64,000 nt of DNA, from assembly GCA_963969365.1 (NCBI GenBank), contig OZ017747.1, positions 4,092,001 to 4,156,000 on the forward strand, in the 5' to 3' direction. Position numbers and translations under genes: made by a program. The stretch is from Asterochloris sp. CNOR1. Taxonomy: Eukaryota; Chlorophyta; Trebouxiophyceae; Trebouxiales; Trebouxiaceae. The notes under the pieces are model-generated. The model did no database searches. It was not told where the DNA came from and saw only the letters and a list, made by a program, of their open reading frames with translations. Below, in pieces: positions 2,236 through 64,000 of the stretch (position 1 is its first letter; every line of letters begins with the position of its first letter).

Positions 2236-4374
2236 CTCATCGGAGCTGCCAGCGACAGGGCTCAGGCTGAAGTTGCACTGCACAGCCTTGTCGGCAACGT
2301 CCACGTACTGCACTCGCGCTCTCTTGGTGTAGGGGCCACTCATCTGCTCGCTGTCGCTGGAGATATAGCCAACATCCCACAGGTAGGCATCGTCGTCAGC
2401 AAATCTGCAGACAGGTCAGGCTGCGGGATTAGCAAATGAGTTCTGCTGCAGATCTCAATCAGCAGATGCAGAGGTCCTGGCAAGTATGACTACCAGGCAG
2501 GCAACGCAAGTCATGCCCCACCAACAGGCTCTGCCCCACAAACGGGCTGCATGCTTGGATACCTGCTTGCAGCAGGGCCAAGCCAAGCAAGAACTGTTGA
2601 GCTGCTGCAGGCTTGGTGGGCCTACAAGGCCAGGTCGCTGCAGCAGGCAGGCAGTCTGAGATAGACATCTGGGGGACCCACCTCTTAGTGACCTTACGCC
2701 GGCGCTTGCTGTCCTCAAAGCCCTTGCTGGAGGGGACGATGTTGATGACCTTAGAGGCCGGCTTCAGAGCGGGCACCTTCCTACGGGGCTTGGCACCTGC
2801 AGATGGAAAGGCTGCAGTGAGCAGGTGGAGCATGCAGCGGCAGGCATGATTGAGCTTGGCACCTGCATACAGGGCGGCTGCAGAGAGCGAGGACAAGGTG
2901 CAGGAGCAGGAGGGAGCTTGATACCTGCATACAGGGAGGCTGCAATGAGTCGATGCGGTATGCAGCAGCAGGCATGAGTGAGCTTGGCACCTGCGTACAG
3001 GGAGGCTGCAGTGCATGGACAACAAATGCAGCAGCATGCATGACGACAGCTGGCACCTACAGACAGGGAGACTGCTCAGGGTGAGTGCAGTGCGCAGCAG
3101 CAAAGAGCGGTTGCATGGACAGCACCTGAGCAATGAGCACTGCCAGCGAGCGGCTTTTCACCACGCAGACACACATGCTCAGAGGCAGGGTGCCGCAACA
3201 ACGGTGTGGCATCCAGCATGCCTGCCACAGCAGGGATGCGGGGGGCCAATGCTGAGCAACAGGCTCTGCCAGCACACCGTGTGCTGCAAAACACTCAGGA
3301 CAGATTGGTAGGCCGCGAAGAGCAAGAGCATCATGCAGCAGACAGTGGCTCAGCACCTGACCAGAGGGACACTGCCACCACACAGTGTTTCCCAACACGC
3401 AGCAATATGTTATATGCTGCATGATCACACTGTTCAGGGGTGGGGCTGTGTTGATGCAGCAAGCACACAGTGCCAGCCCAGGAGCTCGCCGTCAAGCCTC
3501 CAAGACAAGATGAAGTGCCCTTTGGCTGGAACAAGAACCCCAGATCTCAGCAGATCACCCTGTTTGTGAACAGCAGGCGATGGCAACCAAGCCAAGCCGC
3601 AATGCTCAGTGCTGAGCGCTCTGCGCTACTGGGGCGAGGTAGCCTTACCAGGCAGGTATCCAGCCAGATCGCCCTTCACCAGGAATCTGACACCACAAGC
3701 ATTGCACAGGATGTGCTTCTCCGCGGGGCCCTTGCGCCAGCAGGGCGTCTGGAAAGTCCCACAGTGGCTGCAGGACAGAAGAGGCAAGGATTGGCTGACA
3801 CACAGTCAAGTGACGGGCCGCCACCACCTGCTGACCTGTCATCAGCAGGATCTTGCAGGAATCGGACCATTGACTGACGTGGCAGGCGTGGTGCATGCTC
3901 GATCAGGCTGGGTGAGGGGCAATCGGCGTGAGGGACACACATTGGCAAGCGATCAGGGTAGTAAGGCCAAGGAAGCTGCCTGGGGTGCTGCGGCGGCTGG
4001 CTGATTGCTGCATGGCGCAGCTTGGTATTGAGTACAAAGCGCTTGCTGCTCAGAGACCGCGTTACAGCCTACCAGCATGGGCCGCCCTTTGCCGGAGGCT
4101 TGGAGTGCTTGGGACTGTCCATCAAGGTCCTGCAGAATGCATGTGAGTCAGCTCAGGCTGCAGCTCAAGCTGGAGGTGCTGCTCTGCATGAGTGCACAGA
4201 AAGACCTCACCTCTGGGGCAGATCAGGATCGAACACACTCTGCACAGCAGCAAGCGGCTCCTGTTCTGAAGTCAGGCGGGCACGGAAGGCCTGATCAGGT
4301 GCCGGAAGATGGAAAGCACCTGTTGGTGGAGGTTGCTGCAAGATTTGCTGTCGGCTGCAACTACGGAACCGCCT
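2236..4374 (-). CDS. GATA-type zinc-finger transcription factor (5' and 3' ends unresolved)
   Basis: Joined exons: about 4211-4374 (start uncertain), 4073-4129, 3649-3767, 2682-2796 and 2236-2404; the frame runs through all junctions. The 3649-3767 exon completes a plant-type GATA finger. It has C-x2-C (CCHC), TPCWRKGP, then LCNACGVRF after an 18-residue loop, which is the type IV Cys4 pattern with the conserved Trp-Arg-x-Gly-Pro. GATA factors bind WGATAR DNA in the nucleus. Before the finger there is a Gln/Pro-rich segment and after it a strongly basic one (DSKRRRKVTK) that could serve as a nuclear localisation signal. The next exon is acidic and aromatic (FADDDAYLWDVGYISSD). No ATG is in frame in the first exon found, so either an upstream exon is missing or translation starts at the Met at about 4120. 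The stop codon was not found; more exons probably follow towards 1650. The target genes cannot be guessed. Confidence 0.8.
2785..3070 (-). repeat. Tandem copies of an acceptor-side splice junction (about 65 bp period)
   Basis: The acceptor of the GATA gene exon 2682-2796 (plus-strand text GGCACCTGCAG at 2792) recurs as GGCACCTGC at 2858, GATACCTGC at 2920, GGCACCTGC at 2986 and GGCACCTAC at 3052. Spacings are 62-66 bp. Each copy is followed by related text (ACAGGGAGGCTGCA). All four extra copies lie in the intron upstream of the exon. Confidence 0.85.
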
Positions 4375-4599
4375 GTAAGGTTCCGGGACACTTGATCAAG
4401 CCGATGTGCTGGTATTCAGCGCGGCTGGTATACTATCGACTTCGCATCTGGCCTAACTGACAACTGACCTACTCAAAACATCTGACATCGGACTTTCTGC
4501 CTGCTCTGGATTTGCACTCTGCAACTTTACATTATTGGACACTTCAAGAAGTGTGGCCAGGAGTTGAATGATGGATGGTCAGTCCAATGTGCGGTGCGG

Positions 4600-6923
4600 T
4601 CAGCCCTGGTCCATTGCCAGGGCCTCATCCCCACCAGCCACTGCGGTGCCATTGGCCTGCGGCTGCTGGGCAAGGGCCGCCTTCTGCTGCTCTATCTGAG
4701 CCGTGATCTCTGAGGGCATCTGGCCCTGGGCCAGCGATGCTTCAAGTCGGCTAGCCTCCTCAAGGCTGTTCAGGTTTGCGACCGCCGCCTTGATTGCCAG
4801 CAGCTGCTCAGCTGAGGGCTGCTTGGGCGCCTGCTCCTGCTCCACAGGCTGCAGCATAGGCAGTCGCCCGGTCAGCATGGCAAGTGAGGAGCGCATCTGC
4901 ACTGGCTGCAGCATACGCAGTCGCCCGGTCAGCATGCCAAAAAGTAATAAAATAAGGCACTGGGATTGGGTCTCCAGTCTTGATCCAATCGCAGGGTGCT
5001 GCCTTGAGGCAGAGCTGCATCCACAACCTGACCCACAGCTCCTTGGGCTGCTGCTGGCATGGAGTGGTACTTGACAGCTGTTCAGGCAGCCCCTCCTGGC
5101 ACCCTCCCAACACTGAGCAAACGGCAAGCCTGACCAGGTCGGCCTCTGTCATCCCCAGCAACACCAAGATCACCTGCCTAGAGCCGGCCACTGCCTGCCG
5201 GCTGCTGATTCCACTTGCAGGATTTGCAGCACCAGATGCCCCTTCTGGCCACCAGCAACTGCCTGCTTCTATGAGGACACTGCAAGGTTTCACAGCAGCC
5301 CCTCTCACCAGCACTCTGCCTCCTAAAATAAAGGGGACCGCATGCACCTCCCTGATGGCCTGCTATACAAGAGGGCAAGTACCAGCAGCAGGAAGACCCA
5401 GCCCACCCACTGGCAGCTGGCCCCCTTCAAGCAATGCCACTCTATGACACCTGGCTCATCTTCAGATGGCTTGCCTCTGCCTGGTGGCAATCAGACCGCT
5501 TACTCCACCACTTATTCCACACTCCATGCCAGCAGATCTGCTATTGCAACACCAGGCCCACCTGCTGGCGGCTCGCCTCCGCTTGCTGCAGCTCCTCATC
5601 TGGCTCAAAGGTGGCCGCAGTGCCGTCCGCAGCAGCCTCCCCGGACGCATACTTAGCGGCGGCTGCTTCCCGCTCCTTCTGCTTGACCTTCTTGAAGTCC
5701 AGCTGCTTGAGGTGCTTGCAGCGGTAAATCACATAGAGCCTACAGCCGCATTGTGAGGACTCAGCAGCTGGGCAGCCTGTGCTTTGTCCCGAACCTCATC
5801 TCTCTGCTGGCCCTGTCCAACAGTAGATGAATAAGCCTGGTCAGGCAGGGGTGCTGTGTTGCAGCAGGTGTTGCCACAGCCCACAGCAACCAACCTGTAG
5901 TCAGCTTTGAGGGCAACAGGATTGTCCTTCAAGCTCAAATGGGACAACTTGGGAAGCGTGGCCAGCGGGTCCAAGTCCTGCAGCAGTGATGTCTCAGCAC
6001 ACGAGCGGAGGCAGGGCCACCAACGGCAATGGCAAGCAGATGCCTCACCTGAGTGTCACAGCTGCTACCAGCCACTCAGAGAGTGCTCACCTGCAGGTTT
6101 CCCAGGCGATTGTTCGTGAGGATCAGCCACTCTATGTTGGGCGTCGCCTCTGTAGGCACCCAGCCCAGGTTGCTTAGTCACATGGGTGGCACGAAATGCA
6201 AGCCAGCACAGCAGTAATCTACGGGCTCTGCAAGGCCAGGGACAGCTCCTGTGCCTCCTTGATGCAGAGCTCAGCTTGACTCTTGGGCACAGTGTCCGCA
6301 CACAGCTAAGATATTGCTCTGTGACGCTGCTCTGCCATGCAGCTGTGCTGATGGCTTGGTGGAAAGCAACCCCATGCTGGCCTGAACTGCACAAAAGCGC
6401 CCACAGAAATGGGGTGCAGCGCCTGAAGTTCACCTTCAAGGTGGCGTCCCACACGGACAATGCGATTGTTGTTGAGCAGCAATGTTTTGAGGCGTGGCAG
6501 CTTTGGGAAGCCCTCAAGGCGAACAATCATGTTGTCAGATAGGTCTATGCTGTCAAATTGGTTCTGCAGGTGAGCAGGGATCCAATTGAGGAAATGGGGT
6601 GGCTGGGCAGGACGAGCAGGCAGCTGCTCGCAGTCAGGCCGCCAACTCACCTCAGTGGCTCCCAGATTCTCGATGGTCGTGATCTTGTTGCCTGCAAAAT
6701 GGAGCAGCGCCAAGACAACATGAATTGTTTTTGACCAACCACAGCAGCAGTGTGATGCACCAGTGCTGCAGCAAGTCGCAGGCTTGCACTCACCCCTGAG
6801 GTCAATCTCATAGTCCTTCACAGCGCTCATATACTGGGGGCTCCGCAGGATCAGCTCTGCTGTGAGCCTTCCTGCCAGTCTAGCCCCCAGGGCCCCCGCG
6901 CCTTGGCTCAAGCGAGTATCCAT
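4600..6923 (-). CDS. U2 small nuclear ribonucleoprotein A' (leucine-rich repeat)
   Basis: Seven exons: 6794-6923, 6651-6691, 6434-6563, 6091-6149, 5895-5977, 5562-5739 and 4600-4848. They sum to 870 nt, so 289 aa, in frame throughout. The protein has the U2A' layout. LTAELILRSPQY opens the first cap, DYEIDLRG and IENLGATE the first repeat, DSIDLSDNMI and LKTLLLNNNRI the next repeats, then WLILTNNRL, LDPLATLPKL and the C-terminal cap YRLYVIYRCKHLKQLDFKK. A charged tail ends in DEALAMDQG. U2A' binds the first RRM of U2B'' and helps anchor it on U2 snRNA stem-loop IV in the spliceosome. The ATG at 6923 gives about 18 more residues before the family's usual start than in animals; a shorter start is not available in frame. 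The last intron ends in a duplicated acceptor. The length is close to the family's usual 240-280 aa. Confidence 0.94.
4846..4940 (-). repeat. Duplicated acceptor region of the U2A' last exon (57 bp apart)
   Basis: The acceptor text CTGCAGCATAGGCAGTCGC at 4849 recurs as CTGCAGCATACGCAGTCGC at 4906, followed by a matching CCGGTCAGCATG in both. Use of the upstream copy would add 57 nt to the exon in frame (19 codons), so both acceptors could be used without a frameshift. The inner acceptor gives the family-like junction. Confidence 0.8.
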
Positions 6924-10351: not shown

Positions 10352-13300
10352 TCAATCCTCATCTGAAGAGGCTTCGAGCAGCAACTTGTCCACAGCATTG
10401 CGGTGGGTGTCTGCTTGCTGATTCTGGTGCTGCATGTGGTCATGGTGCTCAGCAACAAGCTCGTCCAGCCGGCTGGAACGGCGCTCATGGGCTGTGCCAG
10501 CCGGCAGCCCAGCAACAACCCCATTAGCACTCGTTGCCACCATGGCAGGGGACTGGCTGCTTTGAGCCCCCCCCTGGTGCCCATTTACAGCAGCCACCAG
10601 AGGCTGTTGCACAGCAGGCTCAGCGGGCAGGGCTTGCGGCCCAGCAGGTGACTGCTGGGTGCCCACAGCCCTCTGGCGGTGGGCCACCACCATGTTGTGC
10701 GAGCCAGGCTTGGCCAGGCCTAGCTGGGATGGCGCAGACTGAGACGAAGTGCTGGGGCTCGGCGGTTTGTAGAGGTGTCGGGAGTTCAAAGAATGATGCC
10801 CCGCCTGCTGCTGCAAGCCGGAGGCAGCAGATTGGGGGCCGTCAGCCAGCGGCGCCCAACCCCAGCTCATGTGAGGGTGGGAGCCGCCAGGCTGGCGCTG
10901 AGCGGCGGTCTCAGTTTGGGGCAGCGGGGCAGCCTGCCGTGCTGAGCTGCGATCCTGATCTGTTGCAGCCACAGCAGCTGCAGCCTCTGGCCTGCCAGCA
11001 CCTTGAGATGCTGCTGGCGCCACGCCCTGCACAAGTGGTGCCTGCCTGGCTTCAGCAGGCAGCCCACCAGGGGGGCCAAGCTGAGCTGTCTGCAGCTGCT
11101 GATGATGCCCAGCCTCAGGAAGCGCAGCATCGCCACCTGCCCTGGTCACCCTCTGCAGCTGGTTGGAGGCGTAGGGCGAGGAAGGAACCGGGACAGAGTC
11201 TCCATCCAGCGGGTGCCTCTCCGGTGAGGACATGACTGGCGCCTGCAGCGAGGCGCACAGTTCAAGCATGCGACCGACCTGTGCTGTCTTGCCTTGGCCA
11301 CAGCTCACCAGAGATTGCAGACGCCTGAAGTGTGTGCACAGGCAAAGTGTCACCTGCATTGTTGCCACATCATGCTGTCATGCATCACGCTCTCGACTGG
11401 CATCGGTCGAAGAGATGCGCCCCACACCACATCAGACAGCCGTCCACACCCCCCTTTACAAGCGAGACACCGACAATGCACAGCCTAAAAGCTACCTCAC
11501 AATCATTGTGCCATTCACCACATCACAAGCCCAGCTAACTAGGCCCAGCCCTGCACCCCATCACCCTGCCCTGCTTGCATCCATTTAGCGCCATGACGTG
11601 AGCACATGCACACGAGCACAGCCAACTGTCGCATACTGGGAAACCTGGCACCAAGAAGGACACATGAAGGACACTCTGCCACTTGCAGATCCGTCTTGAG
11701 CCAATGGCAGCTGAAGAAGTATTTGCATGTGCCCTATAAGCCCACCTGTGCGGGTGGCCGCTGGGGCGAGCCAGCTGGGAGGGTGTGCGGCTGCTGCAGC
11801 GGCCCCTGGGCGGCTGGACTGCCAGGGGTGGAGCGCGGCAGCCCCGCAGAGCGGCTGGGCGAGGCTGCCGCGCCAGACAGGCTGCGCCGTGCCTCGCGAC
11901 GCCTGGCCATGTCCTCCTGCTCCTGCAGGGCGACGTGATGCACTGTAAACACTGACATCTCGGCCTATTCACTGCACGTAGTCGGGACGCCAGGCCCCAC
12001 TCCAGCTCCTGCTGTGCACTACGCAATCTGCACAGCATGGGCATGTGAGCAGCACCTGTTCTGTTCCCCTCTGTTGTGCTGTCCTGCAGCAGTCTGCCCT
12101 GCAGTAGTCAGTGCACAATATATGTGCAGGCTCTGGTCTCCCCCTCGGGTGCCCGCGTGGCAGACCTGCCAGGGCCCTGTGCCGTGCAGGGCTCACCAGC
12201 TTCCGACCCTGCAGCTGGCGGCGGCTGGACGTTTTAGGCTGCACAGATAGCCATTGCGAGCTTGACAGGGCAGCTCTCCAGCTTGCAATTATGCAGCTGG
12301 CGCTGACAAGCCCTGGAGGGCTGAACCAACAGACAGTGCATGCTCAAATCAAACACAGGGCAGCTGACCAGGTTCTGATGATGCAGCTGGCGTGTGCAGG
12401 TCCCATATGGCTGCACACACAGCCAGTGCAAGCCCGAAAACAGCAGGGCAGGTTGCCAGCTTCCCCTCATGCTGGCGTTGGCAGGCCTTTAACTGCTGCA
12501 CAAGCAGCCAATGCAGCCTGGGCCAGAGCGCAGGGCAGCTCACCAGCTTCTGCTTGCGCAGCTGACGCTGGCAGCTGCTGAAGCGCTGCACGAACAGCGA
12601 GACCTCGCTCCAGAAGTCGGCGTCGCTGGCCAGCGCCTGCGGGTTCTCCCCAAAGAAGGACACCAGGTGGGCAAAGGAGTCCTGTGCCTGCCGCTGCAGG
12701 CGCCGCAGAGCCTTCAGCTGAGCCTCCCCCTCCTGCAGGCAGAGAACACAGAATGAAAATAGGCGATGCTGCAGTTTGAACACCAGGAATGAGCTGCAGG
12801 CGTCGCACGGCCTCCAGCTGAGCCTTCCCGCTGCAGGTAGAGAAGTGGAGGATGGTGGTAGGCCATGCAGCACTTTAAGAAACCCGAAAGATCTGCAGGG
12901 TTGCTGGGCCTCAGCCCTTGCAGAGAGACTGTGCAGGCATTGGGCAGCCCATGAATGGTTACGTTGGGACCTGGCTACTGCAGGCCAGGTCTGTTGCAGG
13001 TTGTCCACATGAGCTACGGGTCTGCAGGCAAGGAAAGAAGAGTCAAACATGGCGCTCCGGAGCGCTGTGAACCATGGTCAAGGCTGAGTGGGGGTGCTGC
13101 GCTGGGACATGCAGAGGCACGCACAAGAGCCAGACCTTCGTGCAGGCCAGCTTGAAGCAGGTCTAGCATGCAAACTGCTGGCAGCCCAACACCTGGCACA
13201 GCACCCCTACATTGCCGCAATCTAAGCGCCTCAGAACTAGCTTCAGCGGCGAGCACCCACCTTGAGCATGGAGGACATTGTGTCCATGTAGTTGTCAGAC

Positions 13301-16300
13301 AAGATGTCCAGCACGACACAGTCCTCCACTGCACCCTGCCCCTGTCCTAAACCCAGAGGGTCTGCAGGCAGCGCTGGAGCAGGCTGCCCTGGCTGCACCC
13401 TCAACTTCACGGTCACGCTGAGAGCGCTACGCTTGAGCTCCAGCTTGATGCTCTGCATGGCTGCCTGCACCCTGTCGGCCGTCTCCGCAATGTCCTGCAT
13501 AGCAGGGCGACATTTGTCACTGACTTGCCTGAGCGGACAGGCGAGTGCGCACTACAGCCAGCACCAATGAGATGCTGCTGCCTATAAGGTATTGCCGTCT
13601 GCGTGCCAGCCGTCTCCCCCACGTCCTGCATGGGGAGTGAGTCTGCTCTGATGGGCAGACAACATCTTAGCTGCCTCACCACTTTCTGCAGGAGACCACA
13701 GCAGCTGGGGAGGGGATCACTGATGCTGCCAGCCTGCTGAACTGCAGGGGCCCCTGCGCAAGCAAAAAGCTGCTTGTGGCCCACCAGTAGCAGTCGCATG
13801 CACACATGAAGCTGATTGGCACCCTGCAAGCGTCTGTGCAGCTTTTATTTGTAAACTGCTCTGATGTTGGTGAGCTGCCTTGGGCTCCCTACATGTGGCT
13901 CTTCCCCAGTGCACTGCTGCAAAGCACACAATGGAGCCTGGGGTGGAAATACCTGAAGGGTGGTCTTGATGCCCGTCCCCATGACATGGGGCACCTCCTC
14001 TGCCAAGATAGCATGAGGTGGCTGCCTCGCACTCAGCTGATGTGCGATGTAGAGCAGCAGGTTCATCTTGCCATCCAGAGACCTGGTGTCCTGTAGGGGA
14101 TGCAGGCAACAAGTCAGGCAAAGCGCTGCAGCACAGGAAGGTGAACATTTTGCAGAGGACTCTGGTAGCAGTTGACACGCTGGATCATGCAGGGGGCAAG
14201 GCTGCTTCACTGCACACCCTGCTGTTGAGAGCTGGTGCATTGGGAAACAAACATGAATGTGCTGCATGGTGACAAGGCAGCCTGCGTCAGCTGTCGGTGG
14301 GCAGCTGAGGAGTGCAGAGAGAATTAGAGCAGTGTGCCAGGGGCTGCAGCCAACTTGAGCATCCTACCGTCAGTTGAGAAGGCCCGCTCAGAGTCTGACC
14401 TGCAGCTTTGGGAGGTTCTTCAAGCGAAATCCTGCCGCCTGCCCCAGCCTGGTCCCCCAGTTCATGAAATTCCCGATCGCCAGCGCCAGCTGCAGGGCCG
14501 CAGCAAAGCAGGGGCTGGCCCGCAGCTCTGCCTGTGCCGCCAGGTGCTGGCGCAGCACCGCCTCAGCATCGCCCAGCTGGGTGGAGGTCTCAAAGCGGGC
14601 GGCAAAGGTGGTCAGGCGCTGCAGCACCCGCGGCACCTGCAGCCCCGGCAAGGCGACCTCTCAGAGGTCTTGCAAAGTAAGTGGGAACAGGCTGTCGCAC
14701 CCACAGCACCTGCATACACAGCATGTCTGGACTTGCTAACAAGTCCAGAGAACACAGCCCCATTGGCAATCTCCACAGTACACCTCCCCACCGGCTGGAG
14801 TGCACATCCTCACTGGCAGCTTGTCCGGAGTATCATTTGCACTGGCCGGAGTTCACACCCCCACTGGCAACTTGTGGGTTAGGCTTTAGGGTCTAGGTCT
14901 AGGGCGCGCGAGCACTGGGCAGCGCAGCTCTGCGGCGTCTGAGGAGTCCGGAGACTGCCAGTCTGGCTTGGAACAGCATGGACAGGTGGCACTGATAGCA
15001 CAGCCTGAGGGCTGGGGTACTGGACAACAGTCAATCCACACAGGCAGGCCAGCCTCCAAAGGCAGCCTAGTTGGTCACAGTCAGCTGTGTCTGCAAGGGC
15101 AAAAGCTTCCAGGCATCAGCCCGCCCTGGCTGGGAAACCAATCAATGCTGCACGTGGTGACCCAGCAAGAGCAGAGCTGCCATCTCAGTCCACACCAGTA
15201 CTGAGGCCCCCGGGCTGACCTTCATGAGGTCCAAACAAAACACCTCAGCCGTGCTGAGCACCTCCGCTGTACCCCCCTGACTGCACATCAGAGCTTGGCA
15301 GGGTCATTACATGGTCGCAAAGGGTGACAATTCTCCAGGCCTGACCTTCATGAGGTCCAGACAGAACAGCTCAGCCGTGCTGAGCGCCTCTGCCTTGCCC
15401 CCTGACTGCACATAGGACTGCAGCAGCTTCTGCTCATCCTCTGTGGGCACACACTGCAGCACAGTCTCCACATCCTCCAGCGAGTGGAATACGGCAGGGT
15501 CCAGGCGGATGATGGCCTGCTCCACCTGCTGCCAGGGCACCCTGCAGCAAGAGGCTTGTTGTCCTGCCTGAACACCAATGCTGGGCTCCTGTATGTCTCA
15601 ACATGTGACCCGCGGGGATGCTGCACCCTGCAATGCAGGGGTGGACCACATGAGAATGGCAGTCTTAAGACTCAGGGTCAGGCATTGTGAGAGAAGGAAA
15701 GCCTGATCCTCATGCCGCCAAGGCACCCTGCAGTGCACGGCAGGCCACAACAGAACATAAGGCCTCAGGATCAAGCGTTGAGAGACAAGGAAAGCCTGCT
15801 CCTCCTGCCGCCAGGGCAGTCTGCAATGAGGGTCAAGGCGCGAGCGTGACATAGGCCCTCGAGTGGTCATAAAAACCTGGCCTGTGCCAACTGCAGCAGG
15901 GCACTGTGCAGCACATGGTAAATCCAGCCCGAGTAAGATCACCACCCTCAACCACTTTCTTGTGACGCAACGAGCTTGCCTGACGACAAAGCTGCACCTG
16001 CACAGTGTGCAGCTCCATGAAGGCCATGGGGCTCTCCCATCCCCCAGCACTGCTGGAGTTGCAGGATGTTGTGCTGAGGCTCTCCCATTCACAGCCTGAG
16101 GAACGCTATTTCAACAGCTCACAAGGTCTCCCTGGCAGATGACATGCTTGCTGATTATGATCAGTCACAGACCAGCCTGCAAGATCCCATGGCAGCTACA
16201 CAGGAAGGCGCTCACCTGAGGCGCGACATGCGGATGCCAATGTTCTCAGCGCGCTTCAACTCCAGGACAGCCAGCTTCCTGCGAGGGCCAACCCCCTTGC

Positions 16301-49432: not shown

Positions 49433-49516
49433 TGCAAGATGCAGATTCAGCCACATCACTCCCACACAACAGCCTCCCCAATCGCCAATTTCTGCATCTA
49501 GCAACCAAACATCAAC

Positions 49517-50996: not shown

Positions 50997-51005
50997 CATA
51001 CTAGA

Positions 51006-54000
51006 CTATAATTCACTTGGTTTGCAGTCACGAACTTTCCTCACCCACTGTAGCAAGGAACTACACTCCACTGCTAACCTGCCTGGATTCAATACAAGCC
51101 GCCTTGAAGAACCCACACATGATCTGCCAGTTCCACGACACAAGGGTTCTAGATACTGTCTGAGAGGGTCTGTTGCAGACGATACATTGGATGTATCAGT
51201 CCTTGATGGCAGTTGTGCACCATCAATGACATTCATGTGCAGCTCCCCACGCAACAGGTGCACCACCGCCTCCCGCAGCTTGGGCAGCCCCTGGGTGTGC
51301 TGGCCCTTGCCTACGATGAACACTAACAGGGAGGGCAACTTCCACCCCCGCCTGAAGCTTTCCTGCAGCACCGCAGGGGACCTTTTCAAACGTAATCTGC
51401 CAGGCCCCACTTCCCTGGCAATACGTGCACACAGATCTGCACAGTAGTCCAAATGTTTTGGCAGCTTGACTTGACACAGGTCATGTCGTTCACGGCTTTG
51501 ATCAAACTGCCTCACATAGACCAGAATCCCAGCCAGTCTCACCTGCATGGAGGCCAGCATGCACAGCACGGCTGCCCGCGCCTCGCTGGCACTCAGACTG
51601 TGCAGGTCAGCCAGCAGACAGTCCCCCTGCCAGTGCACCCTCAGCAGGAGCTGCTGGACCTGCACAGGGACAGCAGCAGAGTGTTCAGACGCTTCACAAA
51701 CAGGCAGACAGCAAGCAGGGCCCAGGTTGTGCTTGCAACAAGATCTCGCTGGAGAGCACTGTGCCTTGCACCAACAGATCAGATCGGCAGGTGAGCTTGC
51801 TATGTCCTTCAGCATGCGCAACACGCCGCCTCCGCACACACAGAGTGCCACACAGTGTGTCCAGGAGTTGTTGATTACTGAACAGCAATGACAGTCTCCT
51901 GGCTCGGCACAAATTACTGCGGGACGGTCAAGCCATCCACACTGACAAGTCTGACCTGCTCTCGAAGGCGGACATCCCCTGTGTGCAGCGCCTGCTCTGC
52001 GCAGCGGCCCACCAGCTTCTGGAATGCCTCGTTGCTAGGCGCCACACCTGCAGGCAGGACGCTGCTGGTGGGGGAAACAGCAGAGCACCACAGCTGTGGC
52101 ATCATGTCTTCTGGGACGTGTGGCCCCTTCAGCGGAAGGTTGCAGCAGCAACAGCACCGCCAGAGACACCAGCAAGTCCACAGGTAATTTTCTTGCATTG
52201 AGCTTTTAGCTTGTTGCTTGAGCACCAGCTTGGAATACACTTCATACGCACGACACGCAATGACGCTGCAAACTCCAGGTTCTGCAATGCTTATGCAACT
52301 GCTGGACCTGGGGTGGAGGCAGGACAGGGGTACATGTATAGAGGCTGGACAGAGGCACCTGGAGTGGAGGCAGGATAGAGGTCAGGGACCCATGAACGGT
52401 AGCCAGCAGCGGCTTTGCAAAGGCTTGTTTGCTAGGAATGTCGTGCTCATGCAATCGTCAGGCATTGTCTGCCCTCACCAACGCGCCGCATATCAGTATA
52501 GACCTGCAGGGCCTCCTGCAGGCAGCCAGCCTGCAGGAAGATGCCCATCATGAGCCTGAAGGTGTGGCGGTCCGGCTGCATGCGGCGGCTGCCTGCCGCC
52601 ATCCTTCTGTAGGCCGCTCGTGCCTGGTCCACATCCCTGACACTGCTGCATGCCTGCAAGCGCAGCAGCTGCCCTCAGCTTGGGCTTGAGGCATTCTAAA
52701 ACCCTCTGAATGCTTTGCTCAGGATGATGAGCACGCCATGTCCCTGCCTGGGCACCCTAGCAGTTCAAAAGCCCATGCTGACTGGCATTCACATGGTGGT
52801 AGCTGCACTGTGCCAATTGGTAAGCTTCAGACAGCACATGATGCAGAGTACACATTTTCCAGCGCATGGCAGGCTCCACGGATCACTTGGACTCTTTGAG
52901 CTGACCCCACCTTGAGGAAAGCATTGTACACAGTAGTTGTCATCTTGAACTGCTTGGCATCAAGTGCCTGCAAGCCAGCAGAATGTGCACGCTTGCCTGC
53001 AGCCCGTGCCTGGCAGGAGTCATGCAGGGCTGCTGCCAAACGTGGCACGGTGCATGAAAAGCAGCAGTCCGATGCATCTCCTCGCTCCCTCAAACAAAGG
53101 CAGAGGCAGTGCAGGCAGTGTGTGAGCTGAACAGCAGGAACAGCCACCAGCCCAGCAGGAAGCAACTGTGCACCTGCATGAGCGCCACTGCCCTGTTGCG
53201 ATCCTTGGCCAGGGCAAAAGTGGTCAGCATGCTGCTGTAGATTTCAGCGTCTGGCTCCATGCTCTGGCGCCTCATGGACTCGCGGATGCCTGCCACTGTC
53301 TTGGCAGCTTCGTCCTGTGGGAAGGGGAGCTGGGTTGCTGACATCACAGCCACGTGCAGAAGGCAGGGTGGCAAAGGGTCTTGGGGATACAGGAAATAGC
53401 ACAGGGACCTTCACATGCAACACGGCACACACAGCAGCACAAGTCCCCCTGGCAGCAGCTGCCAGTGAGGGCATTGGTAGCCTGCGGGGGTGCGAGTTGA
53501 AGCGAGGCCCGCAAGCAGAGGCCCTGCATGGGCCTAGCACGACAGCAGCTTGGCTGCTTCCCCTCGCAACCAGCAGCACTGGACTTGCAGCGGAGTGCTG
53601 CACATTGCTGCCTTGCCCAGCGCGCACCACAACAACTCCATCTGGGCTATGGATGAAAAGGCCCATGGCCTGATGATATGTCCTCAGCGGGATGAAAACG
53701 CCCGACTGCTGTAGGTCAGACAGCACCCGCAGGCCCCGTTGGGGTTGCCCACAGCGGCTGCAGGCATACAGCAGGCCCTGCATGGCAACAACAACATCTG
53801 CTGTACAGCAGCACAGCAACCTGTGCAGTCGCAGGCCGGGGTGTTGCAGGACAGCCAGCAGTCAGCAGGCCCTTTCCATGGTGCTGTAGTGTGTGCCCTG
53901 TGCAGTGGCAGGCAGGCGTGTCGCAGGGCAGTCAGCAGGCAACAGGCCCTGTCTGTGGTGCTGCAGCACATGATATGTGCCGTAACAAGAAGGGATGTCG

Positions 54001-56820
54001 CAGCACTGGCAGCTGGCAGTGTGCGCTGCCTGTGCTGCTGCAGCCAACCAGTGGAGATGCACACAAAGAGGGGACCGGCAGCAGATGTGAAGAGCAGCAA
54101 ACACCGTTGATGTGGCAGCACTGGGCATCCCTTGTGCCTCCCATTCATGGGGGCTCGATGGCTGCACTGCAACAGACTCACAGCAATGACAGACTCTGCA
54201 TGCTGGGTGGTGCCCTGCTGCTGCAGCTCACTCCATAGCGTGAAGGCAGCCTCCAGCTGGCCAGCCTTGCCGCAGGCAATCAGCAGAGAGGTGCACACTT
54301 CGTCTGACAGGGGCACCCCAGCCACAGCCATGCGGTCTCTGATCTGCAGAAGCACAGGCGGTGGATCAAGGGGTTTGACAGGGACAACCTGCACATCTCG
54401 GTCATCAATTGGATGGGCGGGCCATAGAAGCTGTTTGCAGACCTCATCACCCATAAGCAGGACACTGGCAAGGCTGAGCTCCAGCACACCCTTGCTGTGC
54501 GCTAGCTTCCCGGTGACGGAGAGGCATGCTCAGCTGCAACCGTGCGCCCCTATGCTTGCATGACCACAAGCAGCCAGGGGCTTATGGCCAACTGCACCCC
54601 CGCAATTTGTGATCTGCACAAGCGCATATAGCGAGTGACTTGAATGCAGGCCGAACAGCAGCCATGCAAGCCCTGGTCTGGACAAATACAGATGCCGGAG
54701 ACTGAGCGGCATGCTCAGCTGCAGCACAAGGGGATGCGGCCTGCCATGGTCACCCATACTGGGCAAAGAATGCACTTCCCTGATGAGCAGCAACGCAGCA
54801 CGGAGTACATCAACAGCAGCCAGCCGTTGAGAATCTTTGGATTGGGTGCCACCTGAAAATACCCTGCCCCGTCTGGTGGAGCTGCCATGCCCTTAGAACA
54901 TCGAGCCCACTTACCTTTAGAGCACCATCCACGTCTCCGGCATAGTCGTAGACCTTCAGCAGAGTGTGGAAGGAGACCTCATCTGCCTGCACCCAGTCAG
55001 GGAAAGGCAGTGCCTGGTGAGGCTTTGCACATCGGCAGCTGCAGCAGTACCAGAGCGGCAGCAGACAGCTGCCTTCTTCAGCGGCATCGAGGCGTGCTTT
55101 TCTGCCAAGACCAGCATGGCAGGGATGTGAACCCCTGTAGGGCATGCACACACCTGCAGCCCTGCATCGCCGATCTGCTGCATGACGCCCTCAGCCCTTG
55201 AGACATCCCTGGTGATCATGCAATTCTTCAGCAGGACATTGAAGTTACTGACGGTGGGACTGAACCCAGTGTTCATCAGCTTGATCAGCCTGCAGGCAGC
55301 AATGTGGATTGAGTGGACGGTGCATCCTGTCACACTGTGTTTGCTGCATGTCATCAAGCTGACAATCATCTATGGTCCGTGATGCCTGGCTGGCTTCACT
55401 TGGTGCTGTGACACGCACAACTCTAGGCGCACCTGAGCAAGGGATGCTCACAATGCTGTAGGATGCTCACCTGGCATGCAGGCGGGCAGCGTCTGCGGAC
55501 AGTGCATTCAGCAGGTAGCCAACTGTCAGAGAGTCTGTGGGATGCCAGATGCCTGCCTGCTGCATGCGCGCAAAGGCTGCATCTGCAGCGTCCAGCTCAC
55601 GCAGCTGGCCGAGCTGCAGGATGACTGCACGCCTGCATGTGCAGCAAGGTCACATGCACTGAGCCTACAGAAGAGACTGCAGAGGCACGGTGATGGAGCC
55701 CATCATGTCACAGCACACAGCCCACAACTGGGACTTGCCCAAGCTGCAGACTCATGGCAGTGCGACTCATCGTGGTGCCGGCCAGACGTGAAGGACGCAC
55801 TGCGAGTGCAGACAGCTGTTGGTACTTCTCAGCTGGAAGCTGAGCAGGTGGCAGCACTTGCGCCCCCCGGCTGCATGGACCGTGGCTGAGCATAGCACTT
55901 GAGCAAGGTTTGCTCACCACGCCCTTGCAGCACTGGAGTTTTCGGCGGCCTGCAGGCGTGTATCTTCCAGCAGGACTCCCTGGATGGCCAGCAAGCCCCC
56001 TGTGGCACCGTACTTGCCCATCTGGTAGATGGCTGCAATGTAGGGCTTGGCCTTGTCCAGGGGAAGGATTTGCAGAGCACGAAACAGATAAGCGGGCTCG
56101 CTCACAGGTTGGGGCCTCCTAGTGCTTGGCGGTCTGGGTGTCCTGAAGCTCTGCATGCATCCAGGGAAGAATTTCAAAAATATTCTTGCAGGAGACAAGC
56201 TTTCAACTGCTGTGGCAGGTGGGGAATTTCAGATGCTGGGCTACCTGGACGCTATGAGGCCCTCCTCAAAAGTGCTGACATGCTCAAGCATTTGCATGGG
56301 CGGTCCACCTTGCTTGCTCCGGCTCTGGGCAGGTTGCACCAGCCATCTGCTCATACGCCTCAGTTACCCGGCAAGTGATGTGTCTCAAGCTCACCCTCAG
56401 CAGGCGCTCCCGGGTGGCCTGAGTAAGCACCTCTGGGCTGGCCACAGCCTTCTTCAGCACCTCCAGAGCCTCCTCTGGCTGTCCGCTACCAGCCAGAGCC
56501 ATGCACTTTTGGTAGAGGGATGGAGTGGCGTCATTACTGGCAGTCTTTTCACTGCCATGCGATTTCATAGGTGCTGCATGCATAACATTCCTTTTGGCGT
56601 CAGCAGAGGGGGCGCGCACGGCATCGTTGTCAGCAGGGTGATCAGCAGGGCTCAGATGCTGAGTGGGGTGGCGGCGGCCGCTGGGCATGCTTTCATGCTG
56701 TTTGCCTGTTGCCTGCCGGCTGCAGCGGCTGCTGCGCCTGCTGTCCCCCAGAGATGGCTGTACTGCCAGGGAGGTCAGGCACTGTGGCCAGCGGCCGCAG
56801 CTCAGTCTGGCTGGGAGCAT
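51006..56820 (-). CDS. PPR-SMR protein, probably plastid or mitochondrial
   Basis: Thirteen exons (56309-56820, 55918-56142, 55471-55632, 55154-55289, 54915-54986, 54182-54343, 53628-53777, 53174-53314, 52911-52967, 52479-52653, 51956-52047, 51543-51659, 51006-51362) total 2358 nt, so 785 aa, in frame. The N-terminus is Arg/Ser-rich with few acids, like an organelle transit peptide. Repeats of about 35 residues follow, for example TVSNFNVLLKNCMITRDVS, ADEVSFHTLLKVYDYAGDVD, DEVCTSLLIACGKAGQLEAA, PDAEIYSSMLTTFALAKDRN and PDRHTFRLMMGIFLQAGCLQ: pentatricopeptide repeats. The C-terminus holds an SMR domain: LLADLHSLSASEARAAVLCM with the DLH motif, then LVFIVGKGQHTQGLPKLREAV. PPR-SMR proteins such as GUN1, SVR7 and ATP4 act on plastid RNA processing, translation or signalling. 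Some SMR domains are nucleases. The RNA target is unknown. The acceptor of the second exon has a nearby in-frame alternative at about 56116. Confidence 0.88.
53775..54010 (-). repeat. Short degenerate tandem repeats in a PPR-gene intron
   Basis: Blocks like GTCGCAGG...GTGTTGCAGGACAGCCAGCAGTCAGCAGGCCCT recur about 85 bp apart (near 53826, 53911 and 53990) between the exons 53628-53777 and 54182-54343. GCAGGCCCTGCATGG at the true acceptor resembles the GCAGGCCCTTTCCATGG copy, so at least part derives from that acceptor. Confidence 0.65.
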
Positions 56821-56868
56821 ATCAACTGATGCAACCGAGAGCCTGGAAGCCAGCTGCTGGGGAGCAGA

Positions 56869-57861: not shown

Positions 57862-58046
57862 AGTGCATCTGGCAACTGCAAGAAGACGGACTGGAACATA
57901 GGTCAGTCCACAGCTGTGGCCATGAACTGCAATAATACAGCTGTGCATGCCACATTTCAGGTCTGCTATCATGTGCAGGGCGTGAACGTACAACTGTTGG
58001 TGCATAGCCGAACCCTCAAAAGGATCTGAGTGCCGTGCCGTGACAG
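57862..58046. promoter_or_regulatory. Divergent (bidirectional) promoter, 185 bp
   Basis: This is the whole space between the start codons of the Bud20-type gene (-) and the Aha1-type gene (+). It must hold both 5' UTRs and start sites. No TATA box was seen. Shared control of a ribosome-export factor and an Hsp90 co-chaperone would be plausible but is inferred. Confidence 0.55.
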
Positions 58047-59325
58047 ATGGCAACCTGGGATGAGAAGGATCCCAGGTGAGACCTTGTCTGTACTACAGAC
58101 GATCATTGAATGTGCTGTCAGAACATAGCCTGATTGCTGGCTGTCAATGACATTGAGGCTGCTAGCATGTGCTGCCTGCAGGTGGTTGGTGTCCGACAGG
58201 AAGGATGGGGCAAATGTGAATGGCTGGCATTGGGAAGAGAGGAATATGATGGGGTGGAGTCGGGACAAACTGACAGAGCTGCTGGTGGGCCTGGTGGCAG
58301 ACATCAGCCCAGACCAGGGCGCTGCAGAGCTCACAGAGCTGAAAGACCTGAAGGGCGAGGTGAGGTTGTGGGCAAGTTGCCAGAGGGAGTTGGTGGGTCC
58401 TGCATTGCAGGTAATTTTGCGAAAGGGCTTGTACGCTATGCACCGCCATGCCCTGTGCCAGATGTCTCACCCGTATGGGTGTGCCCCTGCAGGCGCTGCT
58501 GACCCGTCGGAAGTCCAGCAAGAAGTTCTGCATGTACGACCTCACAGTGACAGTCGTCTGGAAAGGTCACTGGGTGGACGACGAAAGCAAAAAGGTGAAG
58601 GCCGGGGCTGGCATCTGGTGGGGGGCGTGGCTGTGGGACTGGCTCTGGAAGTGGCTGTGGCCTGCTGGGCTGCCAGCAGCGCGGTCTGCACACAGGGTGC
58701 GCACGGGGCGATGGGTGCAATCCCCAGGTTCTGCGTCATGCACTGTTCTGGATGGGGTGCTCCCTCAGGGCAGCTGCTTGGCATGCTGTGCTGCGCTAAC
58801 ATGCACTTGTTCTGAAGTGGAAAGTCTCCTTGGGGCAGCTGCCCAAGTTGCCATGTAGCTCATTCGTGGGTGCAGTAGGTTGTCACCACAGATGTGGACA
58901 GGTTGAGGAGCCTGTGGGACATGCACCCATACCTGCGGATTCATGCTCGCCTGGCACTTGCAGCAGGCTGTTTGTGCAGATCATGCATGCTGGCCTGGCA
59001 CTAGCTGCTGCTTGTGACTGCAGCAGTGGCTGTGTGCCATCAGAAACTGAAGGCTGCTGCTCCTGCACTAGCCGCCTGAGATGGAGCGTACGCTGCCTGC
59101 AGGCTATGCCCAGTGACCACAGTTATGCCTTGCCTGCTGCAGGTGACCGGGCAGCTCATCATCAAGGAGTTTGCATCAACAAACGACCCGGACGAGTACG
59201 AGCTGGAGTGCACAGCAGATGGCTCTGGCACGGCGCAGGATCAGCTGAAAGGGCGTGTTGCGGGTCTGAAGCCCCAGATCTGGAAGCAGCTGCAGCAGTA
59301 TGCTGATGCCATTGCACAGCAATAA
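58047..59325 (+). CDS. Aha1 N-terminal-domain protein (Hsp90 ATPase activator, Hch1-like)
   Basis: Four exons (58047-58075, 58182-58359, 58493-58594, 59143-59325) total 492 nt, so 163 aa. The first coding exon is 29 nt. The sequence follows the Aha1_N domain: WLVSDRKDGANVNGWHWEER, then WSRDKLTELL, ELTELKDLKGE, KKFCMYDLTVTVVWKG, GQLIIKEFASTND and WKQLQQYADAI. Aha1_N binds the Hsp90 middle domain and speeds ATP hydrolysis; NVNGWHWEER sits where the conserved NxNNWHW motif does. Full Aha1 has a second C-terminal AHSA1 domain of about 150 residues. Here the stop comes directly after Aha1_N, so the protein resembles yeast Hch1 or plant single-domain forms. No intron or frame suggests a lost second domain downstream. 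Confidence 0.93.
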
Positions 59326-59603
59326 CACCAAGCGGGGGTGCATGCGCCTCCTTGAACCATCAGAGCTGTGTTTCACTATCTGAAGCACTGCTCACCACTG
59401 ATTGATGGACAGCAGATGAGCAAGTTCAAATTGTAGACAATTTGGATACTGCATGCGCTTGTCCTAGTCTGCAGTGTCAGTCCTGACAGCATGAGACGAA
59501 CTTAAACTGGAAGGAGGGGCCTGGGGCTGCAGTACTACACTCATTAACATGCATTTTCATGGGTGCGAGTGCTGGAGGAATGCTCGGGCCTTGCTCTGTG
59601 AGA
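59326..59603. other. Convergent 3' intergenic region
   Basis: 278 bp between the stops of the Aha1-type gene (+) and arginine deiminase (-). Nothing else was seen. Confidence 0.45.
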
Positions 59604-62600
59604 CTATGAGGAGGGGTTGAGTGCCACTGATCCTCTTTCTGCCAGGAATCTGCTGGCCAGCTTGGAGGAAGTGGAGGGATATTTCCTCAGGCCATGCTGG
59701 GCCCCGTGCTGCTCAGATCGCCTGGGTATACGCTTGACCACCTGACTGCTGCAGTGCACGGCCCCGTACATGGAAGTGATGGGACTGTAGTCAATGACTT
59801 GCACATCGCCAGTGAAGTGCTGATCCCTCACAATTTGGCGAGCGCTGTCAGCGTGCACAGCAATGATGCGGCTGTTGCCCAGGTTCAGGATGTTGCACCC
59901 ATACAGCTGCAGTAGAGAGGGTTGGCACACTGAAGGTCAAGCTGTTGTGTAATATTTTTGATTTGAAGCCAAAAGGCAGGACATAAAGGACTGCTGCGCC
60001 TGAGCACGGCGTGCTTGTGCACAAGAAAGTTCCCCAAACCGTTTGCTGGAGCAGGGTACCAAGCTGCCAGTCTGTGCCCAGCCGAATGCAGCTACTTTGC
60101 AGGTAGAGGCTCACCAGCTGGTGCTTAGCTGAAATCTTTATGATGTGGTACCCCTCGTCCTCCATGTACTTGCTGAACTCGACCTGCTGCTTGCTCAGCT
60201 TGTATTTCCCTACAGACGCACAGAAGCAGTGGGCAACCCAGGTCAAGTGCAGGGGATAGGCGTGTTGCTCAGATTGCACTTCCCTTCAGGCTTGAGCGCC
60301 AGTGGGGCGTCTCTTTGACAAGGCACTGTGTCGGGACAGCCCTGTTGCGGCAGCCCAGAGGCAATTGGGGAAAGCAAGCAAAATTAGGTGCTGGACCAGC
60401 TGAGAACAGTAGAAGCAGTGGCTGGCACGAAGTGCAGCTTCCCAACATGGTAACATGCAGAACGATGCTTTGTGTACAGACGTCGAACACATGCCATGAA
60501 GGGCGGCCACCAAAAGCATCCCCTGTGCTTGATGACATAAGGCGCATGACCCCTGCCAGTGACATGCAAACAACACAAGACCAGGAAGAGTGGTGCTTGT
60601 GCTCAGCACAGGCATCTCGTGCAATGTGAGGACATGAGGCGCTGGGACAGTGCGAGTGACAGACAATGAACACACCACCATCAGGAAGGGTGTTCACCAA
60701 AGGCATCGCGTGTGTACTCATCCACAAAGCGTGCCGTCTTGCTTCCCTCGCCAATCATCTCCTCAAGCATGAGGCAGCAGCGGTCTCCCAGAATGCTGAA
60801 CACGCAGTCCAGGTGCATGCGGTCCTGCAGGGGACGGGAGCCAGGGTGTCTGAAAAGCCCTCTTGGCACTAAAGAAAGATAGCTGCAAGCACAGTCCAGG
60901 TGCATGCGGTCCTGCAGGAGAGGGCAACTAGTCTACAGCTCTATGAGCAATGGTGGATACACAGCTTGATACCAAGTCCAGAAACATGCAGCCCTGCAGG
61001 GGGAAGGGGTCGGCTCCTGAACATCTCTCTGAGCGCTGATGGGTTGAACAGCTTTGGTTGGATGGCGCCACAGGTGGCAAGGCAACAGCGCACAAGAGCT
61101 CTCTGAGCGCTGAAGTGGGGTGAGTGGCTGGTGATGCGGTTTGGGTGCTTGTGATCCTCAAAGGAAAGGGAGGCCTGTTGGGGCACATCAAGATGGTTCC
61201 TGGGGGGCCGTCATGACCGTGCATCATGTCGAGAGGCAGTGTCGGCCTTCCTCTCTCATTTGCAGTCTGCAGCGTTGGTCCAGTACGCTCTGCAGACCCC
61301 TGTTGATCAAGAGTCAGAAGATCAGCAATGCAGGAGTGCGATGTTCGGGCTTGTCAGGGTTTTGCATGCACCTTGAGCTGTGCACACCGATCTTGCCAAT
61401 TTGGGCAGCATACGCTGACCTGGCAGCAAACGCTCTCTCCTTCGATCCCGCCCTGAGCTGCCATACCCAGACATGCAAGAGAGCTGACCTGACAGCTAGC
61501 ACTAGCATCATACGAGGTGCCTACCTGGTGGCACTCGTTTTCGTCCTTGACGATGGCCAGGCGGTGTGTACCCAGCAGGTCGCGGTCCATCAGCTGCTGG
61601 CAGGCCACAAAGTTGGAGCGCAGCCCAATGCCCACCAGGGCCAGGTCCTCTCCAGCAGCAAAGAAGTCGCCGCCCTCCAGGAAGCCACCCTCCTCAATGG
61701 CCCCAATAACGCGAAGGCCTGCAGCTCCGTGGACATGCATCAGGATCCAGGACAACACTCAGCTTGAAGACCTGCTGAGGTGCTTCTCTCCACAGCAGAA
61801 CCCCCTCCCCGGCGCCGATCACGAGCAGGCCAGCAGGTTATAACAGGTGCATCAGCCTGTGGGACAGGCGTCACAACCTGCGGAGTGCAACTCTGCAGGG
61901 AACTGCCCTCCTTGATGTTGTCAACCACTTGCAGGCCTGCATGCCCATATTTGACCTTGCATTGGTGAAATGGCAGCATGCAATGGCAGCAGGCGTCCTC
62001 TGCAGCAGGTGGCTGCATGCCTCGATGCTGCTGACCATGACTGCACAGACCTGCAGGTCAACAGTTGTGCAGCACGATGCAGGAGGTAAAAGTTGCAACG
62101 ACTTTTTTGTCCGCTTGCAGCCTGCAGCATCAGATGACCATGTTATGTTGTGCTGCAAAACATTTTGATGCAGTAGGGGCGCTGCTCTCCAGGACGCAGG
62201 CCTCCCCAATGCGGCATGCATTGATCTGTCTGCATCGATGGTGCACAACTCTGAGGAGTTGGCACGGTGCACCGTCGGCTGCTTGCGCAGCTGCACAGGC
62301 AGCAACCGTGCTGCCCTGCAGCAGCACAGCCGCACAGGACAAGCAGGGCCCACAACCTGGCCACCCACCAAGCTCCTGAAAGCAGCACCGCATGACCGAC
62401 AACCTCCTCAGAGGATGCCTTTACGACTAACAATATGTTGCGCCTCATAGGCACACAGGACTGGCCCAGAACCTGGCCACGCTCGCTCTGCTGACGACAT
62501 GCAGGCCACCACTGTCTACATGCACCCCCCATGTCTGCAGTACCCTTATTGTTCGGGACCGCACTCGTTCAAGGAGCTCCTGTTCAGCGGGGGACCCACC

Positions 62601-63830
62601 CAGCTTCTCGAAGCAGAAGCGCATGACCTCCACCTCCAGCTGGCGCTGGCTGCTCCGCAGGCGCCCCATGACAATGCCCTTGCACGTGGTGACCTGCTGG
62701 TCCCGCGTGTACACCAGGTTCGACAGGGGCTGGAAGGTGTAGGATGCGCTCAACCCGGTGTCCCTGTAGGAGGAGGGCATCAGAACATAAGAGGCTCAGT
62801 TGGGGTTGTGGCCAGACAGAAGCTGGGGTCAGTGTGATGTGGTCAGGTACCCCTGCAAGTGCCCTGTGCAGCTCAACTTCCGGGGCTCAACTGGTCAGCC
62901 TGTGCTGGTGGTGCAGATTGGACCTCCACACAGCATCACGAGCACAGGCTTGCCATTTTCAGAAGGTCCAGACAGGACCTGCAGTCATCACTTTCGCACA
63001 CACTGTGGTCTTGGGCCTTTGACCTGGTCAAGCCTTGCCATGACACAGCACACCACATTACTGAGGCTGCCCTGAAGCCTCAGCCAGACCCCATGGCAGT
63101 ACAGCTGCACAGCTGGGATCAGACAGCAAGGATGACGCAAAAGGCTACTCATGCCGGTAGCTGGCGTGCAGTCCAGTTGTACTGCACCAAGGCTGGCAGA
63201 TGTCAGCCCAGGTGCACTGCAGGCCCTGGCACCACCTGTAGCTGGGGCTGATGTGGACAGTGGGGTTGATCATGATGGTGTCGATGAGCTGAGCAATGCT
63301 CATGTGCTCCAGCACCTCACGCTTGTAGCGCTCCCCAAGGTAGTGCTGGTCCTCGGGACGCACCTGGTCGTTGGCCACCCCCTCCACCAGCTCATACCTG
63401 CAGAAGGCGTCAGCTCATCACTGCTGGCTCTGTTGCCCGGATGTCGGGCTGCAGGAAGTGGTGTCGCACAACAGTTTGTTTGTCCAGTGGCTGTGGCATT
63501 GGAGTCCCCCAGCAGTGCACCGATTGGGTCCCCCACTTGGCGAGCCAAGGCTTGCCTGTGCGCCTGAACCAAGCATTCCTGGACCTGCCACACTGGACCT
63601 GCCACACAGGCAATCTGCTGCATGCAGCAGCGCACTGTTCTTCAGACCCTCATGGCCAGAACCCAATCTGTAAGCCAGTCAGGCTGTCAAGCCAGCAGCC
63701 CTGACTAAGAATGCCTAGAGAAGTGGCCCTGCCAAGCAAGCCCTTGCTGCTGCCCTACTTTTACAGCTGAAGCTTCCTGAGCTCCTCCGTGGCCATCTTC
63801 AGCAAGCAGATTTTCCAGTCCCAGCCAGCT
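59604..63830 (-). CDS. Arginine deiminase (5' end unresolved near the window edge)
   Basis: Exons 63765 to about 63830 (start unclear), 63236-63397, 62600-62763, 61525-61718, 60698-60824, 60115-60209 and 59604-59906; the frame is continuous across them. The enzyme hydrolyses L-arginine to citrulline and ammonia. Visible signatures: QPLSNLVYTRDQQVTT and KGIVMGRLRSSQRQ, then GFLEGGDFF with the substrate-binding Asp, GIGLRSNFVACQQLMD, HLDCVFSILGD with the HxD pair, FSKYMEDEGYHIIKI and YGCNILNLGN. MYGAVHCSSQVVKR carries the catalytic Cys. A 38-residue tail after RIPRR is not conserved. Arginine deiminase is known from bacteria, Giardia-like protists and a few green algae such as Chlorella, but not from land plants. 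The exon at 63765 (KMATEELRKLQL) is the first I can place. One or more 5' exons probably lie between 63830 and beyond 64000. Confidence 0.9.
60810..60925 (-). repeat. Duplicated acceptor junction in arginine deiminase (87 bp apart)
   Basis: CAGGTGCATGCGGTCCTGCAG at the acceptor of the exon 60698-60824 (60810) is repeated exactly at 60897. The preceding CAGTC and GAAC/GCAC-like text also match. The copy lies in the upstream intron and keeps the CAG acceptor. A separate remnant of the exon's donor side is near 60498-60540. Confidence 0.85.
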
Positions 63831-64000
63831 GCCCCAGCGGTGCAGTGGCCCCTTCCTGACAGCAGGGCCTCCCTGGAGTGCATATATGGCTGTCCACAGC
63901 TGTCAGAGAGCTGGTTCTGCTCTCTCCTGCCAGAAAGGTAGTTATTGCACAAAAAGCCCCTTGCTCCAGCTTGCCTGAGTGCCTTCATGGCCATCTCTTC
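63765..64000 (-). repeat. Copy of an arginine deiminase donor-side exon end at the window edge
   Basis: The minus-strand text GATGGCCACGGAGGAGCTCA at about 63799-63780 is matched by GATGGCCATGAAGGCACTCA at about 63995-63976. Both continue GG(A/C)AAGCT. The copy is in the same orientation, about 196 bp upstream, and is cut off by the end of the window. Confidence 0.7.

Follow-up and report, generated by a model that had tools for sequence, protein, structure and literature searches.

Where does the sequence of introns come from, and why are introns long in some lineages? The question is old, and the source of most recent intron gains is reported to be untraceable (PMC4974935). Here we analyzed a stretch of 64,000 nucleotides from the green alga Asterochloris sp. 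CNOR1 (contig OZ017747.1, positions 4,092,001 to 4,156,000 of the forward strand; hereafter the window), in which a source can still be read off numerous introns, namely the intron's own edge and interior. An earlier reading of the letters without database searches (the sequence-only reading) had noted that blocks spanning an exon edge and the adjoining intron recur inside introns, and had proposed a process centered on the splice junction. Our analysis points instead to recurrent local tandem duplication, tolerated within introns and across their edges, to which we assign a probability of roughly 0.7. The less ordinary parts are the density of junction-crossing duplications in this locus and the persistence of spare acceptors.

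All results on placement, dispersal and fate refer to the 64-kb window alone. Self-comparison at E<1e-3 yielded 37 direct high-scoring segment pairs (HSPs), every one spaced by 39–867 bp; thus, none of the 37 joined places more than 1.5 kb apart, and no inverted repeats were found at the same threshold. At 30 bits or more, 62 HSPs fell at offsets of 30–430 bp, versus a mean of 0.29 per equal-sized control band, which is an approximately 200-fold excess. A slightly stricter run provided 57 HSPs, which were merged into 32 local arrays (Table 1). The identity of these 57 HSPs ranges from 64 to 95%, and therefore the array ages look mixed. Copies of one unit lie head to tail, as in minisatellites. 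Tandem Repeats Finder reported 16 entries, some of which correspond to arrays (2788, 16313, 19641, 38308, 41970, 53820), most of the 32 arrays not being among them. As far as 64 kb shows, the repeats are local duplications rather than a dispersed family, in agreement with the sequence-only reading.

The genes were modeled with a gene finder trained on the window itself, and the predicted exons were then joined into genes. The first output, with 503 exons, contained too many short predictions and was replaced by a run with 140 exons. During manual editing, 18 predicted exons were removed, 21 were flagged as uncertain, two were added and one acceptor was shifted from 4905 to 4848. Five of the removed exons sit within arrays (2863-2877, 2991-3005, 12197-12208, 12784-12830 and 21403-21420) and were discarded because they resembled copies, so that the junction calls there are partly circular and judgement-laden; in the U2A' array, the real acceptor (4848 or 4905) was likewise assigned by our choice. 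The edited models comprise 103 confident exons and 84 confident introns, the latter with a median length of 285.5 bp.

Twenty-two of the 32 arrays overlap a confident junction (15 acceptors, 7 donors), and their alignments pair the real exon edge and adjoining intron with an intronic copy. Among the other ten, two touch only uncertain junctions, seven are intronic without a junction and one is exonic. The junction arrays occupy 19 introns in six genes, encoding U2A', GATA, formin, kinesin, nitroreductase and arginine deiminase. Their smallest offsets range from 51 to 231 bp, with 19 of the 22 falling within 57–139 bp, and three exons (12544-12732, 15346-15541 and 60698-60824) carry arrays at both ends. 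The sequence-only reading had counted at least 15 introns in seven genes; the number of introns stands, but the pentatricopeptide repeat (PPR) gene drops out, since none of its three arrays crosses a junction at our threshold.

Introns with arrays are considerably longer than those without (medians of 596 bp for 24 introns and 255 bp for 60 introns, p 5e-11). When the surplus copies are subtracted, the array introns, with a median of 423.5 bp, are still longer than array-free ones (p 6e-6), although these figures are approximate, one reduced length being negative because two exon-reaching arrays were subtracted whole. The residual extra length fits either older copies that are no longer visible or larger targets. 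In total, surplus copies account for about 4.1 of the 29.4 kb of confident intron sequence, and many of them carry a spare splice site, the acceptors at 12830, 16466, 42085 and 60911 being examples. Growth of introns by local tandem duplication, as originally suggested, is thus upheld.

To account for the strict locality, tandem layout, junction overlap and greater length of array introns, we infer the following order of events. Small tandem duplications of roughly 50–200 bp would arise repeatedly in these genes. Copies internal to exons would mostly be removed because they damage the protein, whereas those within introns or across their edges would be tolerated by splicing, since an undamaged junction is left to the exon, and the extra copy of exon edge and intron would turn into intron. 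Each event would add one unit to the intron, and a unit covering the junction would leave a spare donor or acceptor. As to the repair process, in seven inspected arrays the HSP is at least as long as the period in four and shorter in three, with 11, 13 and 46 bp unmatched between the copies, suggesting staggered-break fill-in and joining, or slippage; the copy spacing fits end joining with fill-in as well as slippage and decides nothing between them. Patch-mediated repair duplications in rice, paired-nick duplications in plants and human introns derived from tandem arrays are known. Fill-in at DNA breaks has been identified experimentally, at induced breaks in cells, as a source of small tandem duplications (PMC8355091), which resemble those of the window in being small, local and tandem, but the passages concerned draw no link to introns.

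Several observations weigh against tolerated duplication: the retained core of the spare acceptors, the excess of junction crossings over uniform placement and, to a modest extent, over simulation, also among the strongest arrays, possible junction remnants among the intronic arrays, and the empty intergenic DNA. They are considered below together with the two rival explanations that they favor.

The first rival, which we regard as unlikely, is that spare acceptors are maintained by selection, either serving as alternative acceptors or aiding splicing. Of 21 acceptor copies, 20 retain the AG, compared to five of nine donor copies with GT (Fisher p 0.019). Identity at the core positions -5 to -1 is 0.90–1.00, against 0.70 for the flanking intron and 0.78 for the flanking exon. 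However, five of the 21 matches begin no more than six bases from the junction, which makes them edge-biased, and the copies are not independent. When the splice cores were masked before detection, the effect was weaker, with AG kept in 8/9 copies (p 0.066), the five-base core in 6/9 (p 0.016) and donors in 1/5. This test has low power (nine acceptor and five donor copies), and the acceptor 12732, scored in it as lost, is an alignment-gap case which reads TGCAG in the unmasked comparison. Where intronic copies remote from junctions were compared with each other, TGCAG was retained in 32 of 55 cases, against 70 of 235 for its CpG-free anagrams, and its reverse complement in 24 of 64. Nevertheless, TGCAG is common in this sequence: CTGCAG, which is also the acceptor core, is over-represented both in introns (112 vs 75 expected) and in exons (77 vs 36 expected). 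Since the intronic TGCAG excess is matched by the reverse complement and is also present in exons, it was not used as evidence for relic acceptors. The relic copies have a lower median acceptor score (7.4) than the real sites with which they are paired (8.8, p 0.007); across 91 modeled real acceptors, the median is 7.8. Among 2256 intronic AGs, 29 match real acceptors in score (about 7.6 or more), and ten of these are copies of a neighboring junction. The other 19 (12098, 14125, 33701, 44223, 62315 and others) lie outside the mapped copies and may be older relics or unmodeled exons.

The coding potential of the spare sites speaks against selection for their use. Only five of 30 are usable in frame without a stop, and their spacing is a multiple of three in 12 of 30, near one third; therefore, coding use is not the driver. 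The step to new exons, which the sequence-only reading had considered possible, is not supported by these figures, and its view that spare sites decay applies to donors but not to acceptors, ten of which are at real strength. Duplicated acceptors raise a sharp question for splicing: copies of real strength exist, yet 25 of the 30 spare sites, if used, would either disrupt the frame or run into a stop. Real acceptors at 16343/16344 and 2796/2797 on the minus strand run straight into GT (AG/GT), and therefore their copies resemble zero-length exons or recursive splice sites.

The second rival, which we consider rather improbable, is a junction-directed process, in which duplication starts at or near splice sites, for example at transcription- or splicing-linked breaks, and junctions are copied above chance. 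The placement of arrays was tested with the 28 located in confident introns, leaving out three in uncertain introns and the exonic one. A junction is crossed by 21 of the 28, while seven stop short at our threshold, in conflict with the assertion that the unit always includes a splice junction. Uniform placement within the introns actually hit predicts 10.3 crossings (p 1.4e-5), and the excess is also seen at 40 bits or more (15/21 vs 7.0 expected) and at 50 bits or more (12/14 vs 4.95 expected). This enrichment, initially taken as strong, is in large part explained by detection bias and intron geometry. In a simulation of tolerated duplications (templates taken from 45 array-free introns, a single exon rate, five ages), uniformly placed duplications cross a junction in 46–51% of cases before detection bias; once this bias is included, the range is 46–71% at 30 bits. 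The detected fractions reach 0.61 and 0.71 at 30 bits, and 0.67 and 0.83 at 40 bits, in the two oldest age classes; the share rises with age because copies anchored in slowly changing exons stay detectable longer. Compared to the simulation, the 21/28 crossings represent a modest excess, with p 0.011 at an expected fraction of 0.52, which is our own age weighting of the simulation table, 0.09 at 0.61 and 0.40 at 0.71 (oldest age). Without the coding repeat 19633-20157 (20/27 crossings), the respective values are 0.016, 0.11 and 0.45. For the 40-bit set, p is 0.076 at 0.536, obtained by the same weighting, and 0.43 at 0.669, whereas for the set with at least 50 bits it is 0.017 at 0.55, an estimate, and 0.11 at 0.67. 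Neutral placement with detection bias can thus explain much or all of the crossing frequency.

Array boundaries give a mixed picture. With exons masked, 21 intronic arrays remain, ten of which end within 5 bp of a junction, versus 0.89 expected by chance abutment, as duplication starting at junctions would have it; the other 11 do not, although four of them overlap the junction once exons are included. The position of the junction within the unit varies, the exon share ranging from 0.16 to 0.82 with a mean of 0.41 (Kolmogorov–Smirnov p 0.24 versus uniform; 20 arrays, hand-entered values), and no peak of repeat coverage was found at junctions relative to deep intron. On the other hand, comparison of the seven intronic arrays with their flanking junctions gave P <=0.015 in four of 14 shuffle tests (53820-54044, both sides, P 0.005; 54510-54723, one side, 0/200 shuffles; 52306-52382, one side, 0.015). 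Therefore, seven is an upper bound for junction-free arrays, some of which may have originated as junction arrays and survive as remnants. Furthermore, no array is present in the 6.7 kb of intergenic DNA (6656 bp between gene models), where 5.4 would be expected at the intron rate (p 0.0045), a result which a gene-blind duplication process does not predict. In our view, the shortness of the introns is the main reason why junctions are commonly copied, and any surplus left unexplained is modest at most. The junction-centered process proposed previously is not supported, given the wide spread of exon shares and the extent to which short introns and detection bias produce the observed frequency.

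The Rogers model as described in PMC4974935, in which an intron is gained when an exonic AGGT stretch is duplicated in tandem, is very improbable here. Tandem duplication does involve splice sites, and the array 18870-19022, located in uncertain gene models, repeats an acceptor–donor pair, but none of the 22 confident-junction arrays combines a confident donor with a confident acceptor, as a one-unit intron would, and in none of them does the donor flank of an intron resemble the acceptor flank of that intron one unit away. In the unit of 18870-19022 (minus strand), 13 nt lie between an acceptor-like TTGCAG and a donor-like CAG/GTAAGC, resembling a duplicated micro-exon. Introner-like or other mobile elements have a negligible claim, because, unlike introners, which expand algal introns by dispersed families, every repeat found in the window is local, none being common to places more than 1.5 kb apart or inverted (E<1e-3), and no similar introns occur at unrelated loci within the 64 kb.

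Local tandem duplication has precedents elsewhere. In a potato RdRp gene, a tandem duplication running from the last part of an intron into the exon that follows created a second acceptor and a new intron supported by RNA; the same gene also contains a purely intronic tandem duplication of 83 bp (PMC4974935). The units of 22 of the 32 window arrays likewise cover an intron–exon boundary, and those at acceptors provide a second acceptor. Unlike in potato, the surplus copies, spread over 19 introns of six genes, appear to have become part of the pre-existing intron. The sequence-only reading had regarded the process as undescribed in this form. A single junction-crossing case, that of potato, is in print (PMC4974935), whereas no account of recurrent junction-spanning tandem duplication as a route of intron growth was found among the open-access literature matches listed. 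Some Drosophila introns have been attributed to tandem duplication of exonic proto-splice sites (PMC2891723), with which the window arrays share regional tandem duplication supplying extra splice-like sites. Chlamydomonas and its relatives, also green algae, have long introns, with medians of 198–343 bp, the cause of which was left open by the authors (PMC8226300), and intron-edge tandem duplication is not mentioned in the relevant passages of that study. Searches for a single-copy state in relatives, with kinesin and U2A' peptides against viral contigs and with kinesin against genome contigs, both collections without eukaryotes, returned no related locus. It is conceivable, if doubtful, that in this lineage junction-spanning tandem duplication is a main engine of intron growth and also stocks spare acceptors of real strength, which are kept by selection or splicing dynamics. 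If so, such introns would offer natural tests of how the cell chooses between near-identical acceptors some 57–139 bp apart.

Table 1. Repeat arrays in the window, with junction-overlapping arrays listed before intron-internal ones (offsets in bp).
Gene	Position	Strand	Array	Details
GATA	2785..3102	-	acceptor array	offsets 66/128/194; real acceptor 2796/2797; AG kept in 3/3 compared copies
U2A'	4840..4940	-	acceptor copy	offset 57; 91% identity; inter-acceptor stretch open in frame
formin	12191..12610	-	donor array	offsets 82/172/257; real donor 12544; three donor copies GT, GA, GC
formin	12693..12912	-	acceptor copy	offset 100; opposite end of exon 12544-12732
formin	13462..13631	-	weak acceptor copy	31 bits
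formin	15209..15413	-	donor copy	offset 126; 86% identity over 80 bp; 46 bp unmatched between copies
formin	15515..15860	-	acceptor array	offsets 100/186/279; real acceptor 15541
formin	16313..16680	-	acceptor array	offsets 124/158; 86% and 72% identity
formin	19633..20157	-	mainly coding in-frame 51-bp repeat	junction 19832 reached only via weaker HSPs
formin	21192..21499	-	acceptor array	offsets 85/166/253
formin	21881..22105	-	donor array	offsets 82/167
formin	23535..23761	-	acceptor copy	offset 139
formin	24059..24444	-	donor array	offsets 113/216/330
kinesin	31001..31219	+	weak acceptor copy, motor exon	36 bits
kinesin	33924..34093	+	acceptor copy	offset 96
kinesin	37437..37791	+	donor array	offsets 85/86/280
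kinesin	37808..38135	+	acceptor copies	offsets 109/132
kinesin	38269..38575	+	acceptor array	offsets 100/188/200; 74-89% identity
nitroreductase	41970..42140	-	acceptor copy	offset 91; 85% identity; 11 bp between copies
arginine deiminase	60495..60714	-	donor array	offsets 96/187
arginine deiminase	60790..61054	-	acceptor array	offsets 87/169; opposite end of exon 60698-60824
arginine deiminase	62363..62637	-	weak donor copy	offset 231; 39 bits
formin	14748..14875	-	intron-internal array	offset 50
kinesin	38852..38952	+	intron-internal array	offset 39
RRM	44580..44804	-	intron-internal pair	offset 169
PPR	52306..52382	-	short intron-internal array	offset 51; weak similarity to one flanking junction
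PPR	53820..54044	-	intron-internal array	offset 77; weak similarity to both flanking junctions
PPR	54510..54723	-	intron-internal pair	offset 185; weak similarity to one flanking junction
Aha1	58939..59023	+	short intron-internal array	offset 44

The Pfam domains recognized in the window are LRR_9 (U2A'), GATA, glyoxalase, PH, Drf_GBD and FH2 (formin), DUF3431, kinesin, nitroreductase, RRM, metallo-beta-lactamase, chlorophyll a/b-binding, PPR, Aha1_N and ADI. In comparisons with the Protein Data Bank, the arginine deiminase gene aligns weakly to solved arginine deiminases, and the best alignment of the kinesin is to KIF15. The formin gene contains a coding minisatellite (19638-19823, minus strand), in which 51-bp repeats, corresponding to 17 residues and rich in Ala, Thr and Ser, follow each other in frame. 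In the kinesin gene, the coiled-coil exons 35655-35708 and 36522-36572 (plus strand) have similar starts, 867 bp apart, possibly due to an old exon duplication or to coiled-coil convergence.

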